Assembly (NCBI GenBank): GCA_016840025.1
Contig: JAEOTF010000517.1
Coordinates: forward strand, 1 to 14,512
DNA length: 14,512 nucleotides
Direction of reading: 5' to 3'
Source: Candidatus Hodarchaeota archaeon
GTDB taxonomy: Archaea; Asgardarchaeota; Heimdallarchaeia; Hodarchaeales; YT1-039
The translations under genes were made by a program, and so were the position numbers. Positions 4,589-14,512 of this stretch are shown in pieces (the stretch's first letter is position 1; every line of letters starts with the position of its first letter). The notes under the pieces were generated by a model that saw only the letters and a program-made list of their open reading frames with translations, was not told the DNA's origin and did not search any database.

Positions 4589-5803
4589 ATGCTGCGAATC
4601 AACACACCACCGGAAATATTAATCTCGATTGTAAAGGAAAAACACACTCAAATTCCCAACATCATGGAAGAAACCAGCATAGATTGCTGGGTAGTATTTG
4701 TACGTGAAACAGCGGGAAATCCAGATCCTGTAATGAAACTAGCTACAGGGGGAGATGTAGTATGGGAATCAGCCTATATTTTCCTGAATAATAAGGAAGG
4801 ATTTTCTAGAACTGCTATAGTTGGAGAGTATGATGCTCCACCAGAGGAAAATAAAGGTATTTGGGATAACATTATTCCCTATAGAGAGGGTATTACTCCC
4901 CCTCTTCAAGAATTTTTTAAGAACACGGACCCTAAGCAAATAGCCTTGGATTATTCTATAGATGATGTAAAGGCCGATGGATTAACACATGGTATGTTCT
5001 TAAAACTAGCCGATATTCTTCCCGATAAAAAAAGCAGGTTCATAAGTGCTGCTCCAATAATAAGTATGATACGAAGTAGAAAAACTGCTAAAGAGCTTGA
5101 ACTGATTACTGAGGCATGTAAACTTACGGAAGAGATCAATAAACGCGCGATAGAAAGAGTACAAGTAGGAATGACCGAAAAACAAATTCAACAGCTGTAC
5201 TTTGAAGAAATGGATAAGGAAGGAGTTGGTGCATCATGGCAAAGATCCCATTGCCCTGCGATTGATACAGGTCCCAATAAGGAAATTGGCCATTCGGGTC
5301 CAACCGATGAACATACACTTAAGAAAGGGCATACCCTGCATAATGACTTTGGAGTAAGGCTACACGGTTACTGTTCAGACCTACAACGAATGTGGTTTGT
5401 AGGTTCAGCCGATGAAATTCCAGAAGAGCTTATTCACGCGTTCGAGACAGTACGAGATGCTATCTCTCTCTCGTTTGATGCTATTCAACCAGGTAAGATC
5501 GGTTATAAGATAGATAAAATAGCACGTGATCACGTCATATCCCGTGGTTATGAAGAATTTGGGCATGGATTAGGTCATCAAGTAGGAAGGCAGGCTCATG
5601 ATGGTGGGACAACTCTATGTCCATTATGGGAAAGGTACGGTGAGTTACCTAAGGGCAAATTAGAAGAGAATCAGGTCTATACCTTAGAGTTGAATGTGAA
5701 AACAAAGAACTACGGGACAGTCTCTCTTGAAGAAAACATAGTAGTTACTCGTGATGGAGCCCGTTTCTTGGTTCCCCAGCAGACAGAGTTCAAACTTATC
5801 TAG
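4589..5803 (+). CDS. M24-family metallopeptidase, aminopeptidase P/prolidase-like
   Basis: The 404-residue protein has an N-terminal creatinase-like domain (about 1-155) and a C-terminal pita-bread domain. The five expected metal ligands are visible: D253 in NDFGV, D264 in GYCSDLQR, H326 in GHGLGH, E367 in TLELNV and E381 in SLEENIVVT. H337 in RQAHDGG matches the second active-site His. This is the di-metal centre that hydrolyses Xaa-Pro bonds in aminopeptidase P and prolidase, so it is predicted active and cytosolic. The glutamate that normally starts an E-P/E-x pair is followed by LN rather than PG, so substrate preference may differ from classical prolidases. The ATG at 4589 is supported by an adjacent GAGGAAAA. 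It runs the same way as the BadF-type gene but is separated by 166 bases and has its own TATA-like box. Confidence 0.9.
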   Translation: MLRINTPPEILISIVKEKHTQIPNIMEETSIDCWVVFVRETAGNPDPVMKLATGGDVVWESAYIFLNNKEGFSRTAIVGEYDAPPEENKGIWDNIIPYREGITPPLQEFFKNTDPKQIALDYSIDDVKADGLTHGMFLKLADILPDKKSRFISAAPIISMIRSRKTAKELELITEACKLTEEINKRAIERVQVGMTEKQIQQLYFEEMDKEGVGASWQRSHCPAIDTGPNKEIGHSGPTDEHTLKKGHTLHNDFGVRLHGYCSDLQRMWFVGSADEIPEELIHAFETVRDAISLSFDAIQPGKIGYKIDKIARDHVISRGYEEFGHGLGHQVGRQAHDGGTTLCPLWERYGELPKGKLEENQVYTLELNVKTKNYGTVSLEENIVVTRDGARFLVPQQTEFKLI

Positions 5804-5951: not shown

Positions 5952-6602
5952 TTAGGCTTTTCTCTTCTTCATGAATACGACAAACGGTATTAGTGCGATA
6001 AGAGGGATGTAAAGTAAATTTATTTGTTCTGACATAGTAGTATAGGTCAAATGTAGTAGTGGGGGATTAGATGCTTCACTAGATTCTATATCAATGTTAT
6101 CTGGTCCATCATCATCTTCGAGTATTATGCCATAATTTGTGACCTTTCCACTTTCCCAATCTTGTGCTAACTTCGTTATATCAACAGAGTTACCATAACC
6201 AGTAATAATGCTAGCGCTAGCGATGGTTGCATTTACTGCTGTATCATAAGTTGGGGGGAAATTCCATGTTGCTGTTGATTCAACCCATGAATTTGTGACG
6301 ATATGAATGTTGATACCACAACCTGCTCCTTGTATTCCAGAGACTGAGAATTCTAAAGTTGCAACACTTATACCCTCGTAAGCACTGACGTCAAAAAGGA
6401 TCAATGAGCGATAAATACTAGCACCTGTTAGACCCACATAGAGAAAAGGCACTTCTCCATAATTGGTATTAGGATTGGTTTGATAGAGCATTGCATCTTC
6501 TATTGCGTCAATTGTTGTTGTAGCATTTGGAGTAGCAGCTGCTGATTGCGTAGAAATACCTGCTACTAAGAGAGTAATTATCAGTATAATTTTAATTTTC
6601 AT
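5952..6602 (-). CDS. Secreted, membrane-anchored DNRLRE/CBM96-type domain protein
   Basis: The 216-residue protein has a signal peptide (MKIKI, hydrophobic 5-16, cleavage near the AAA at 21-23) and one beta-rich domain with DNRLRE-type signatures. These are D-A at 36-37, NYG (47-49), LYVG, YRSLILFDVSAY (64-75), a predicted beta strand SVATLEFSV, and WVESTATWNF (106-115). A C-terminal helix (about 195-211) is followed by the basic tail MKKRKA, so the domain is displayed outside and anchored at the C-terminus. Related domains bind carbohydrate or act as structural modules of surface proteins; no catalytic residues are expected. I chose the ATG at 6602 because GGTGAG sits seven bases upstream; a TTG at 6614 is the longer alternative. 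It is divergent from the solute-binding protein gene, with a shared promoter motif between them. Confidence 0.8.
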   Translation of the reverse strand: MKIKIILIITLLVAGISTQSAAATPNATTTIDAIEDAMLYQTNPNTNYGEVPFLYVGLTGASIYRSLILFDVSAYEGISVATLEFSVSGIQGAGCGINIHIVTNSWVESTATWNFPPTYDTAVNATIASASIITGYGNSVDITKLAQDWESGKVTNYGIILEDDDGPDNIDIESSEASNPPLLHLTYTTMSEQINLLYIPLIALIPFVVFMKKRKA

Positions 6603-6700
6603 TTTTCTCACCAAATTATTATACTTTGTAGAGATAAAAATTATTGATAGTGTTGGGGTTTTTCTATAAAGCTTTTTGGATAAAAACTTAGGTTCATTAT

Positions 6701-9028: not shown

Positions 9029-9784
9029 CTATCTTCTGTACTTTGCTTCTTCTTCTTTGATCTCGCTTATCAAAAAATCAATTTTTTCTTTAAACGTCAT
9101 TAATGCAGGTGTTTCCAGTGGATCTCGTTCACGATTGAGTTCATTTACTATTTCACGAAACTTTCGGAGTACTAGGGTTATAAATGGTGCAGAAGCTTCT
9201 TCCATCTGGATTTTATCTCTGACATTCTCAAGTTGGGAGCGTAAGGTATCTGTAGTCAATGTTCCTGCTCCTTGTACAATTATTTGGTTAAGTGTATGAA
9301 GTCGTTCGATAGCATCACGATGGGGAGATACCAGTTTCTGCAAATCGTGTTTGTCTTGTTCCAGCTTATCCCGTTCACTTATCGTTTCTAATGTCTTATC
9401 TTTAAGTGAGAAAATCTTGTCGGCTAATTCACGGATCGCGTCTCGATTTTTCGTAATATTCGATTTAACTACTTCTTCAATATCCTTAATTAATTTTGAT
9501 GTATTTGTGGTAAGCGTATTCTCTAAATCTGTGACTCTTGTGTCTAAATCAGCACTTAGTTTGCTTATTGGACCTGTTTGTAATTCATTAACTAATTCAT
9601 CATACGCGGTTTTTACTTCATTGAGCTTTGTCTCAAATTTTTCATTCAAATCTTGAATTTTTTTATCATAATCTACCAGAAAATTAATTTCTTCCTTTAC
9701 TACAGATCGAACTAGTTCAGGTATAAGTTTTGCTAATTTCTGTTCGAAAATTTCCTCGAATTCTGCTCTATCTTTGTCCTTCAT
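9029..9784 (-). CDS. Soluble coiled-coil protein of unknown function
   Basis: I do not recognise a family. The 251-residue protein is almost entirely charged, heptad-patterned helix. A short basic/acidic N-terminal helix (1-30, ending LIPELVRSVVKEE) is followed by a long coiled coil at about 33-152, with a break at GPISKL (71-76). A linker around SPHRDAIERLHTLNQIIVQGAGTLTTD leads to a second helical region with a hydrophobic patch (PFITLVLRKFREIVNEL, 200-216) and a C-terminal helix. There is no signal peptide, membrane segment or cysteine. The ATG at 9784 is well supported by GGTGA eight bases upstream (AGGTGAACACAAATG). It lies 103 bases downstream of the CoA synthetase gene on the same strand with its own TATA-like box, so it may be transcribed separately. 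A scaffold or cytoskeleton-like role is possible but unsupported. Confidence 0.85.
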   Translation of the reverse strand: MKDKDRAEFEEIFEQKLAKLIPELVRSVVKEEINFLVDYDKKIQDLNEKFETKLNEVKTAYDELVNELQTGPISKLSADLDTRVTDLENTLTTNTSKLIKDIEEVVKSNITKNRDAIRELADKIFSLKDKTLETISERDKLEQDKHDLQKLVSPHRDAIERLHTLNQIIVQGAGTLTTDTLRSQLENVRDKIQMEEASAPFITLVLRKFREIVNELNRERDPLETPALMTFKEKIDFLISEIKEEEAKYRR

Positions 9785-11481: not shown

Positions 11482-12591
11482 TCAAACTTTACAGATTGGG
11501 CATCCTTTTCCCATTCTCTGCCATTGTTGCCAATGTGGTTCATGAAAGGGAGAACTGCAACTTGGACAGTGGAAAATCTTCTTATCGGGTGTGATAGGTA
11601 ACCCGCATACTTGACATCGTTCTGGAGCTACCTCACAAGATGGACATTTTCGTTCCGTAACTTTGAGTTCCACACCACACTTCTCACACAGGATTTTTCG
11701 TCTTCTGATTCGTTGAACCATATTTTGGGTTTGCCAAGTGATATTCCATGCACGGTCTTGAGTAGCTTGTACATATCTTCCAAGTGTTCCTCGACGCGGA
11801 TATGCAAAGAGTAATCCTGCCATAAAGAGAGTAATGCTCGCCAATCCTACAAAATGATCTTGATAAACAATGATGGCGCCAATTCCACCTATTAGAACAA
11901 ATAGATAGACATTTGCTCGTGCTCCTTCATAGATTAGTAGGACTAACCTTTTCCCCGCTCCAAGGAGTAAACTAACATATTCACGAATAAACTTGGACAT
12001 ACTGGATCTAAAACGTTGTAGTGTAGTTTTTATCCTTCTAATCCCTCGCACACTGTAATGTACTAACACTTTGAAGATTTCAACTATAAAAGAAGCAATA
12101 CGTCCTGGAATTCTACGATATTCCGCATTCTGGATTACTTCAATGATCTCACCTGCTTTACGAATAAACCGTTCATTCAGATCATACGCTTCAACAAAAA
12201 CTCCTGATAAAATTACTAAACCCCCTGATAAAACAACTCCAGCCGTCCAAATATCCTCTAAATGAATGTCAAACGCTAAAAAGAACAATGGACTAAATAG
12301 AATCAGAAATCCTAAATAAACTACAACTGCTCCTAATGCCCAAGATTCAATACCACGCATTTTAAGGAGTTCAACTACAAAACCTAAAGCAATAAAATAA
12401 ATTGTAACACTCATAGCAAGTAAAACAGCATTCATAGTTGCGTCAGGGATCCATTTCGAGACACTTTTGTTTTGAATGATAATAGCTCCCCCTATTGTGA
12501 GCAGAAATCCTATAACTCCTATTTTGGAGATTTTAGAAATTTTAACTCTGGTTATTATAGTTTTGTCAAGTTCTTTTATCTTTTTAGCCAT
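11482..12591 (-). CDS. Multi-pass membrane protein with C-terminal zinc ribbon and RING-like finger
   Basis: The 369-residue protein has about six membrane helices (near 23-40, 51-73, 84-107, 115-135, 228-243, 248-264). A long basic amphipathic stretch (about 140-225) separates the fourth and fifth. The C-terminal tail carries two zinc modules. A zinc ribbon uses C302, C305, C316 and C319. Four ligand pairs follow: C326/C329, C342/C345, H350/H353 and C364/C367, with spacings 12, 4 and 10 and W354/W357 between the last pairs. Four spaced pairs in this order are the cross-brace pattern of RING fingers; it resembles the prokaryotic RING (Prok-RING) type. RING domains recruit ubiquitin-type E2 enzymes, but E3 activity here is inference; a purely structural finger is possible. 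It is the second gene of a tight operon: three bases after the upstream stop codon, with GGAGGA inside that gene's end as its ribosome-binding site. Confidence 0.8.
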   Translation of the reverse strand: MAKKIKELDKTIITRVKISKISKIGVIGFLLTIGGAIIIQNKSVSKWIPDATMNAVLLAMSVTIYFIALGFVVELLKMRGIESWALGAVVVYLGFLILFSPLFFLAFDIHLEDIWTAGVVLSGGLVILSGVFVEAYDLNERFIRKAGEIIEVIQNAEYRRIPGRIASFIVEIFKVLVHYSVRGIRRIKTTLQRFRSSMSKFIREYVSLLLGAGKRLVLLIYEGARANVYLFVLIGGIGAIIVYQDHFVGLASITLFMAGLLFAYPRRGTLGRYVQATQDRAWNITWQTQNMVQRIRRRKILCEKCGVELKVTERKCPSCEVAPERCQVCGLPITPDKKIFHCPSCSSPFHEPHWQQWQRMGKGCPICKV

Positions 12592-12594
12592 TAT

Positions 12595-14490
12595 TCATAT
12601 TCCTCCTTTGATTTTTGCACCACAATTCTTACAAAATTTCCAGTTGAAAGAGATTGTAACTCCACAATTTTGACATTTATTACCTATAATTTCTACTGTG
12701 TCTGCTTGTTCTTGTTCATCGCTGACTTTTCGCTCAAATCGCGAAGCTGGTTGTCTTTTCTCTATTTGATTTTTTACTTGTTGTATCTTGCTGAGTGCAT
12801 CTCGTTCAATCCCACTCATAAACTGATCAAATCGCGAAACTGGTTTTTTCATTTCTTTTTGATCAGTTACTTGTTGAATTCTGTTAGGTAGTCGATCTTG
12901 GAATCCACTCCAAAATTCTCGTTCCTGATCGGATAAAGCTTCTAGTAATAACAGTTCTTTAAGAAGTGGTGGAATCCTCACCAATTCATTGGATTGATCT
13001 AATTGTCTAATTTGACCAATAAGGTTATTTTTCTTTTTCTTTTCTGCTTCTTGCTTAGTTTTGGTCATATATTGTTCTTGTTCAATCAGAAGCTGTTTCT
13101 TATAATCACTCCAATAATTCTGTGCTTGTTGTGACAGGTCCTTCAATTGTAATAATTCATCTACCATTGGAGGGATTTTTTTCAATCTAGTTGATTCCTT
13201 GTAATGACTTTTTAGCTGATTAATTCGAGAAATAAGTGTGTTTTTCTTCTCTTTTTCAGCTTGCTGTTGGATTCTAGTAAGCAGTTGTTCTTGATATTCT
13301 ATCCAGTTACTACGTTCCTGCTTTGATAAGTTTTCGAGCTGTAATAATTCCTTAACAAGTGGCGGAATCATTTTTAATCGTTTAGCTCTATCAAAATGCC
13401 TAATTTGAGACGTTAATTCCCTTTTCCTTTTCTTTTCTACTTTTAGAATCTTTTTTGCTAATCTTTCTTGATATTTGTACCAATAAAGCTTTTCTATTTT
13501 TGACAGATCTTCTTGCTCTAGCAATTCTCTAACAAGTGGATAAATCTTTGATAGTTTCTCAGTTCGTTCTAACTCTTTAATTCGGGCAGTAAGTCTTTTT
13601 TTTCTAGTTCTTTCCTTTATTTTACTAACTGTTTTACTTTTTAACGTTTTTGAAACCTGGGTTGAACCTTTTATTGTTTGTTCTATGGTTTGTGCAGATT
13701 TAGTTGCCAAGGTTAATCCCTTTGACTTCCATTCATCTAATGAATCAGAAGGGGATGTTATGGACTTCGATGGTTCCTTAACAAGTGATGAGCTAGATAG
13801 GGATGGAATAATGTTCCATCGTAAGGTATCTCGTCTTTCAATAGTCCAACGCCCCACAACTGCCCCCACAAATATGAAAGCGATCCCAAGGAGAGATTTA
13901 TAATACCAAAACTGCTCATCGACATCAAGAATCCCTAATAAATCCATGGTTAGTATATATGGAATACCAATACCAATCAATACAATAGATACAAAACCTA
14001 AAATAACTAACGGTAAAATTAATACAAATTCGTAAAATATTTGTTTTAATGCTATTAGTCCTCTGATTATTTCCTGTATAATTAGATGGACTAAATTTTG
14101 CAGAAAATTCCAAATGTTTTTGGTTGTATTTATTAACATCCGATTTATAGGGTAGAAGAATGCTCCATATAATAGTGCTCCTGCAGTTAGAAGCGAGAGT
14201 TGCCCCTCAGCTCTTTCAATATTAATAATTCCCCAAAATCCAAATCCAATCGCTATTATTGTGACTAACCCACGAACTACCCCTTTCCAATGAATGTAGA
14301 CCCAGTGTACAACTGCAATTACTTGGTATTGAACCCACTGTCCAAAGCATATTAGTTGATACAGTATCCATTTCCCTAGGATAATTACTATAGGATAATT
14401 GAAGCAAAGAATAAAGAGGATACCTAAGCTAACCAGGAAAAACATTCCCCACTCAGGGTTTAGCGAATCCCCGATGAATGGAGCTATCAT
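12595..14490 (-). CDS. Membrane protein with four tandem helical repeats and C-terminal zinc ribbon (start possibly beyond the window)
   Basis: I recognise no named family. From ATG 14490 it is 631 residues. The N-terminal third (1-220) has hydrophobic helices near 14-38, 74-90, 97-115, 152-185 and 198-214, separated by Trp-rich amphipathic segments (QWVQYQVIAVVHWVYIHW, 51-68). A Ser-rich cytosolic linker (226-290) follows, then four copies of a 59-67-residue, Lys/Glu/Gln-rich helical repeat (298-545). Next come two copies of a 31-residue unit (538-599) and a zinc ribbon with C606, C609, C620 and C623. The frame stays open upstream to the window edge and the extra codons (VIGIYLI) are hydrophobic, so the true start may lie further out. 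The gene is followed after three bases by the RING-like membrane protein, so the two are very likely made together and act together at the membrane. Confidence 0.82.
   Translation of the reverse strand: MIAPFIGDSLNPEWGMFFLVSLGILFILCFNYPIVIILGKWILYQLICFGQWVQYQVIAVVHWVYIHWKGVVRGLVTIIAIGFGFWGIINIERAEGQLSLLTAGALLYGAFFYPINRMLINTTKNIWNFLQNLVHLIIQEIIRGLIALKQIFYEFVLILPLVILGFVSIVLIGIGIPYILTMDLLGILDVDEQFWYYKSLLGIAFIFVGAVVGRWTIERRDTLRWNIIPSLSSSSLVKEPSKSITSPSDSLDEWKSKGLTLATKSAQTIEQTIKGSTQVSKTLKSKTVSKIKERTRKKRLTARIKELERTEKLSKIYPLVRELLEQEDLSKIEKLYWYKYQERLAKKILKVEKKRKRELTSQIRHFDRAKRLKMIPPLVKELLQLENLSKQERSNWIEYQEQLLTRIQQQAEKEKKNTLISRINQLKSHYKESTRLKKIPPMVDELLQLKDLSQQAQNYWSDYKKQLLIEQEQYMTKTKQEAEKKKKNNLIGQIRQLDQSNELVRIPPLLKELLLLEALSDQEREFWSGFQDRLPNRIQQVTDQKEMKKPVSRFDQFMSGIERDALSKIQQVKNQIEKRQPASRFERKVSDEQEQADTVEIIGNKCQNCGVTISFNWKFCKNCGAKIKGGI
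12601..12606 (-). promoter_or_regulatory. Ribosome-binding site of the RING-like gene inside the preceding coding end
   Basis: The complement reads GGAGGA, nine bases before the ATG at 12591, and overlaps the Gly-Gly-Ile codons that end the upstream gene. This is the strongest Shine-Dalgarno match in the window and implies translational coupling of the two membrane proteins. Confidence 0.8.
12734..12845 (-). repeat. 31-codon duplication with a nearly identical 19-base core
   Basis: TCAAATCGCGAAGCTGGTT (12734-12752) and TCAAATCGCGAAACTGGTT (12827-12845) differ at one base and lie 93 bases (31 codons) apart. In protein the two copies read IQQVTDQ...PVSRFDQF and IQQVKNQ...PASRFERK, between the helical repeats and the zinc ribbon. 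Confidence 0.75.
12856..13599 (-). repeat. Four tandem protein repeats of about 59-67 residues
   Basis: Each copy has a first helix (L-x2-I-x2-[LF]), the core IPPLVKELLQLE-x-LS, and a third helix with W-x2-[YF]-[QK]-x2-L. Core positions are 316-320 (IYPLV), 375-379 (IPPLV), 439-443 (IPPMV) and 506-510 (IPPLL). The Trp residues are W337, W396, W460 and W527. Spacing of 59, 64 and 67 residues is the same for both landmarks, confirming register. DNA identity between copies is low, so the duplications are old and kept by selection on protein. Confidence 0.85.
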
Positions 14491-14512
14491 AATTAAGTAA
14501 ATACCTATTACA

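Follow-up and report, generated by a model that had tools for sequence, protein, structure and literature searches.

The stretch of DNA analysed here (the window) is a contig of 14,512 nucleotides from Candidatus Hodarchaeota archaeon (JAEOTF010000517.1), and towards one end it carries two neighbouring genes on the minus strand, which we refer to as A and B. Our main subject is B, which encodes a protein with predicted membrane segments and with a zinc ribbon and then a probable RING finger at its C-terminus. Eukaryotes use such fingers to attach ubiquitin to proteins, and this archaeal group is thought to be the closest to eukaryotes. The two genes and the features of B are as follows.

12595..14490, minus strand: gene A, 631 amino acids from the first ATG; membrane protein with a repeat array and a terminal zinc ribbon
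11482..12591, minus strand: gene B, open reading frame of 369 amino acids; membrane-anchored ribbon–RING protein
12601..12606, minus strand: GGAGGA in the last codons of A, a candidate ribosome-binding site for B
12196..12531, minus strand: hydrophobic segments 1-4 of B (residues 21-132), from a Kyte–Doolittle scan
11797..11922, minus strand: hydrophobic segments 5-6 of B (residues 224-265), then a basic stretch, from the Kyte–Doolittle scan and charge counts
11635..11688, minus strand: zinc ribbon of B, C302/C305/C316/C319, with all four ligands invariant
11488..11619, minus strand: RING finger of B, residues 325-368, from Pfam, PDB sequence matches, predicted fold and conservation

The stop codon of A (TGA, 12597-12595) is followed by three bases and then by the ATG of B (12591-12589), with the GGAGGA nine bases ahead of that ATG. 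The frame of A is open up to the window edge (638 amino acids), so its start codon is provisional and its 5' end open. Hydrophobic segments, defined as 19-residue stretches with a mean Kyte–Doolittle value of at least 1.5, number four in A and six in B. A first-pass annotation of the stretch had described two membrane-protein genes three bases apart with a GGAGGA in the end of the first, both proteins having membrane segments at the N-terminus and zinc motifs at the C-terminus; our coordinates, hydrophobicity scan and motif positions agree with this. In B, the basic charge blocks (+7 over residues 1-50, +8 over residues 151-200 and +8 over residues 251-300) fit a predicted topology in which both ends of the protein would lie in the cytosol.

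A search of ∼5.8 billion proteins with B, in which 7998 candidates were scored, gave four matches, namely B itself and three relatives, which are 65, 50 and 48% identical to it across 96-100% of its length. The relatives are labelled Promethearchaeota archaeon, Candidatus Hodarchaeales archaeon and Candidatus Hodarchaeota archaeon, the last carrying the source name RING finger protein, and all are Hodarchaeales-type records; NCBI places the Hodarchaeales in Promethearchaeati. Pattern searches, which in the genome collection detect close relatives only, found no relative of B in that collection (77 matched stretches) or in the viral collection (none of 77). Conservation across B and its three relatives is uneven. 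Over the whole protein 147 of 369 columns are invariant, compared with 26 of 43 in residues 224-266, 28 of 44 in the RING and 19 of 23 in residues 346-368. The ribbon (residues 301-322) has 6 invariant columns out of 22, and only 2 of 18 outside the ligands. All 12 ligands of the ribbon and the RING are invariant.

The eight RING ligands (C326, C329, C342, C345, H350, H353, C364 and C367) make up four pairs in RING order beside the ribbon, exactly as the earlier annotation had listed them, and their spacing, C-x2-C-x12-C-x2-C-x4-H-x2-H-x10-C-x2-C, is itself invariant in all four sequences. The second ligand pair is shifted relative to RING-H2 fingers: the position of the fourth RING ligand is occupied by Ser347, for which C342 apparently substitutes.

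Comparison with RING and Prok-RING profiles, which the first-pass annotation had proposed, did return such matches, albeit below the curated cut-offs. The ribbon–RING piece of B matched Prok-RING_1 with an E-value (E) of 8e-6 (26.2 of the 29.1 bits needed), zf-RING_2 with E 5.8e-5 (23.7 of 27.3 bits) and zf-RING_5 with E 0.0012; whole B scored 22.5 bits with Prok-RING_1 (E 1.1e-4) and 17.6 bits with zf-RING_2. Prok-RING_1 (PF14446) is thus the best Pfam family for B, and its match (profile positions 5-37 of 54) ends before the last ligand pair. When the four family members were scanned whole at E <= 1, Prok-RING_1 was matched by three and zf-RING_2 also by three. In NCBIfam, no match came close to its cut-off. 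Among sequences of solved structures in the PDB, the top matches were Ark2C/RNF165 and Arkadia, both RING-H2 ubiquitin ligases, with best E of 5.2e-4 for the B piece, 0.0014 for the full family profile and 9.7e-5 for a profile of the four domains. The PDB lists also held non-RING entries, among them dipeptidyl peptidase 4 (E 0.036) and PHF2 (E 0.025).

Shuffles of the ribbon–RING piece that preserved its cysteines and histidines served as a control. None of ten matched any Pfam RING family at E <= 1, and two of the ten, compared with the PDB, matched no chain named RING; the chains listed were a UBR-type protein and Rubisco small subunits. Two shuffles did match ribbon families, one of them Double zinc ribbon (DZR; 6e-4), the other Zn_ribbon_DUF2089 (0.0075). 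Because a shuffle could match DZR at that level, Pfam ribbon matches carry little weight and were set aside.

The structure comparison rests on the ribbon–RING piece, the full-length model of B being too poor for use. The piece was predicted with a mean predicted local distance difference test score (pLDDT) of 79, and ten-residue means of 82-90 over the RING. The predicted RING superposes on chains of RNF165, RNF38 and the Prp19 U-box at 1.2-1.4 Å over 43-45 residues, the value for RNF165 being 1.3 Å over 45 residues. The model thus predicts a RING cross-brace, and together with the sequence matches it leaves us highly confident that the C-terminal domain of B has a RING fold. Two independent zinc ribbons, which the earlier annotation had already set against a RING, were rejected on the predicted fold and on the nearest solved sequences, which are RING-H2 ligases. 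A related alternative is that the metal sites belong to some other treble-clef or tandem-ribbon module, such as a PHD finger, a C1 finger or a double ribbon, with protein or lipid as its binding partner, and that its resemblance to a RING is superficial. C1_2 (E 0.0022) and the PHF2 chain do match, and the serine at the fourth ligand position, with its apparent replacement by C342, would suit such a module. However, these matches are partial (C1_2 over residues 325-351, PHF2 over profile positions 33-58), whereas, Prok-RING_1 aside, RING matches extend through the last ligand pair. PHD chains are absent from the 50 superposition matches listed and appear in the structure search at ranks 31, 32 and 46. 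A PHD or C1 finger was set aside, since its matches cover only part of the domain, and we consider this whole class of explanation very improbable.

The roles of the E2-contact residues were taken from the literature on Arkadia and on srfp, the RING protein of Caldiarchaeum subterraneum and an archaeal E3 whose reaction has been reconstituted, together with general knowledge of RING fingers. In srfp, the substitution I30Q abolished ubiquitylation, and W58A and R69A impaired it (PMC5654768). The corresponding positions in B are listed below.

11608..11610, minus strand: V328 of B, likely counterpart of the E2 contact I30 of srfp, judged by position and spacing; invariant in four of four sequences
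11521..11523, minus strand: W357 of B, aligned with Arkadia W972 and likely counterpart of srfp W58; invariant in four of four sequences
11488..11490, minus strand: K368 of B, at the linchpin position (Arkadia R983, srfp R69); arginine in the three relatives

Thus the hydrophobic residue in C-x-[IVL]-C, the helix tryptophan and the proline of CPxC, as looked for in an E2-binding RING, are present in B as V328, W357 and P365, the last also invariant in all four sequences. The residue after the last ligand is basic throughout (lysine in B, arginine in the three relatives), and in B, as in srfp and Arkadia, it lies at a spacing of 11 from the tryptophan. This conservation pattern, read from the alignment, speaks for E2 binding by B. 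Lysine in place of arginine at position 368 could mean a weaker activity in this lineage.

The comparison with srfp can be taken further. Like B, srfp is an archaeal RING whose C3/H4 ligands are displaced (in srfp by two residues) and which has an extra cysteine (PMC5654768), and it uses an isoleucine, a tryptophan and a basic residue for the E2 and the closed state, of which B has likely counterparts by position and spacing. In contrast, srfp is small and its gene shares an operon with those for ubiquitin, E1 and E2, whereas B has 369 residues, six membrane segments and an added ribbon. At E <= 0.001, none of the 10 other genes in the window matched a ubiquitin-operon family, and an operon of the srfp type was not found here. 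Arkadia (RNF111) and Ark2C (RNF165), whose tryptophan and linchpin positions align with those of B, differ in having histidine as the fourth ligand, where B has Ser347 (and C342 as likely substitute), and cysteine as the sixth, where B has histidine.

We weighed two roles for this RING. On the first, B is a cytosol-facing, membrane-anchored RING E3-like protein, a reading that we favour on balance, with ligase activity as its conditional part. On the second, the ribbon–RING serves assembly and not catalysis, like the corresponding domains of SEAC/GATOR2 and IFT-A, and would join B to another zinc-domain protein, perhaps through the terminal ribbon of A, and make it a membrane scaffold. This reading, which takes up the scaffold alternative of the first-pass annotation, is the main rival, and we hold it to be unlikely though worth serious attention. 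The C-terminal domains of SEAC/GATOR2 and IFT-A resemble B in having a ribbon directly before a RING-like domain, and the structure match extends over the whole piece, although nothing in B beyond its zinc-binding part is similar to them. Their sequence similarity to B is not significant, however, and B lacks a beta-propeller or alpha-solenoid: it matched no propeller family at E <= 10 and does not have the layout of the SEAC/GATOR2 large subunits (N-terminal beta-propeller, alpha-solenoid, C-terminal RING). In the sequence comparison canonical E3s rank first, with GATOR2 chains appearing only at E 0.32 (MIOS) and 4.7 (WDR24). The families zinc_ribbon_16 and zf-RING_16 are ones that we take to be of the GATOR2 type. 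A tryptophan is found in the helix of GATOR2-type RINGs too, and W357 by itself therefore cannot tell the two roles apart. The CP[IV]C[KR] end does so better, and B and its relatives keep it along with the E2 loop and the linchpin. Moreover, a scaffold role need not exclude catalysis, as work cited in PMC10938194 reports binding of UBE2D3 and ubiquitination of NPRL2 by a RING of WDR24.

Several points tell against B as an E3-like protein. Every Pfam RING match to B falls under its curated cut-off, and the conservation evidence comes from four sequences, which are few. Lysine at the linchpin position of Arkadia is reported to have weakened or disabled that ligase. The ribbon–RING tandem itself resembles the SEAC/GATOR2 and IFT-A assembly domains, and the RINGs of SEAC, which stand in the same tandem, are described as structural. 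Finally, a conserved A–B complex is unsupported, because A has no detectable relative. The membrane-anchored E3-like complex of the first-pass annotation thus survives as regards a RING with its E2-contact residues kept, while a conserved partnership is not supported.

If B is E3-like, the six predicted membrane segments would anchor it in the cell membrane, its two termini facing the cytosol and the C-terminal ribbon and then the RING finger standing at the membrane surface. An archaeal E2~ubiquitin would dock there on the RING, probably through V328, P365 and W357, and the basic residue 368 may hold the conjugate in its closed form. Ubiquitin would then pass to membrane or membrane-near substrates, chosen by either the ribbon or the membrane part of B. 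Protein A, probably co-translated with B, could in this organism serve as its partner in the membrane or as a receptor for substrates.

In this contig the pairing of A with B is genuine; elsewhere it is unproven. It is quite conceivable, at a little under even chances, that A and B are unrelated membrane proteins which share an operon by chance, B acting alone. Three relatives were detected for B and none for A, and the similarity between the membrane parts of A and B is not significant: 20 of 500 shuffles reached the score of the best hand-picked pair, and 181 of 500 reached that of the N-terminal regions compared in full. Against this, the three-base spacing and the GGAGGA inside A suggest coupled translation, A likewise ends in a zinc ribbon, and the protein search missed even A itself and so says little about A. 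The idea that A and B are paralogues was not accepted, given these shuffle counts, 392 of 500 for a third pair, and a profile comparison that gave a probability of 46 over 28 columns.

Ubiquitin components have been described from related archaea. Heimdallarchaeota AB125 is reported to have four candidate E2-like proteins, of which two carry a putative catalytic cysteine, and an Asgard ubiquitin–ESCRT pathway has already been described (PMC9192718). Ubiquitins have been shown from three Heimdallarchaeota genomes, and the characterised archaeal E3 is the small, soluble-type RING protein of the ubiquitin operon (PMC5654768). For Hodarchaeales genomes, an enrichment in proteins of the ubiquitin system is described (PMC12077186). 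Our searches of open-licence literature turned up no description of an Asgard membrane RING protein, which is not proof that none exists. If B does act as an E3, a membrane-fixed RING in these close relatives of eukaryotes would mean that ubiquitin signalling operated at the membrane before the origin of eukaryotes, alongside the Asgard ubiquitin–ESCRT pathway, and gene B is small enough for direct reconstitution, which makes the question testable. More speculatively, and in our view with little chance of being right, membrane-integral RING ligases of the Hodarchaeales might be the pre-eukaryotic counterpart of membrane quality-control E3s, their tandem being kin to the assembly domain of SEAC/GATOR2 and IFT-A, with one archaeal module behind both.

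Protein A has three further features.

13840..14436, minus strand: region of A with four hydrophobic segments (residues 19-217), from the Kyte–Doolittle scan
12811..13629, minus strand: four-copy repeat array of A (residues 288-560 examined), from repeat alignment and shuffles
12613..12681, minus strand: C-terminal zinc ribbon of A (residues 604-626), Pfam Zn_Ribbon_1 at E 1.3e-4, under its cut-off

The repeat array and ribbon of A had also been noted at first pass, and both hold up. The ribbon ligands are C606/C609/C620/C623. The repeat copies are ∼65-70 residues each, and each of the six pairwise scores exceeded those of all 200 shuffles; neighbouring repeat ranges overlap by ∼11-14 residues, and the overlap-free pairs 1-3, 1-4 and 2-4 likewise gave 0 of 200. 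The repeats share a recurring [IY]xPLVxELL...LS...W motif and have no Pfam match at E <= 10. Searches of the ∼5.8 billion proteins gave no relative of A at E <= 0.001 (whole protein) or E <= 1 (residues 1-235), but they failed to return A itself and so are weak as proof that relatives are absent. In the PDB the only match to A was Tweety homolog 2 (E 0.16 and 0.2), which is not significant.

Elsewhere in the window, 1-1371 on the minus strand encodes a partial, multi-helix membrane protein of 457 amino acids, cut by the window edge, which has the histidine-rich stretches SHLHIM and GHWHVL and matches nothing in Pfam at E <= 0.001. A charged, probably coiled-coil protein of 251 amino acids (9029-9784, minus strand) likewise has no Pfam match at E <= 0.001. 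The plus-strand gene at 4589-5803 encodes an M24 peptidase, for which the genome-collection pattern search, sensitive to close relatives only, gave 12 loci, all bacterial, with 25-33% identity. The gene at 5952-6614 on the minus strand, with a TTG start, encodes a secreted-type CBM96 protein with what by eye appears to be a C-terminal hydrophobic anchor.
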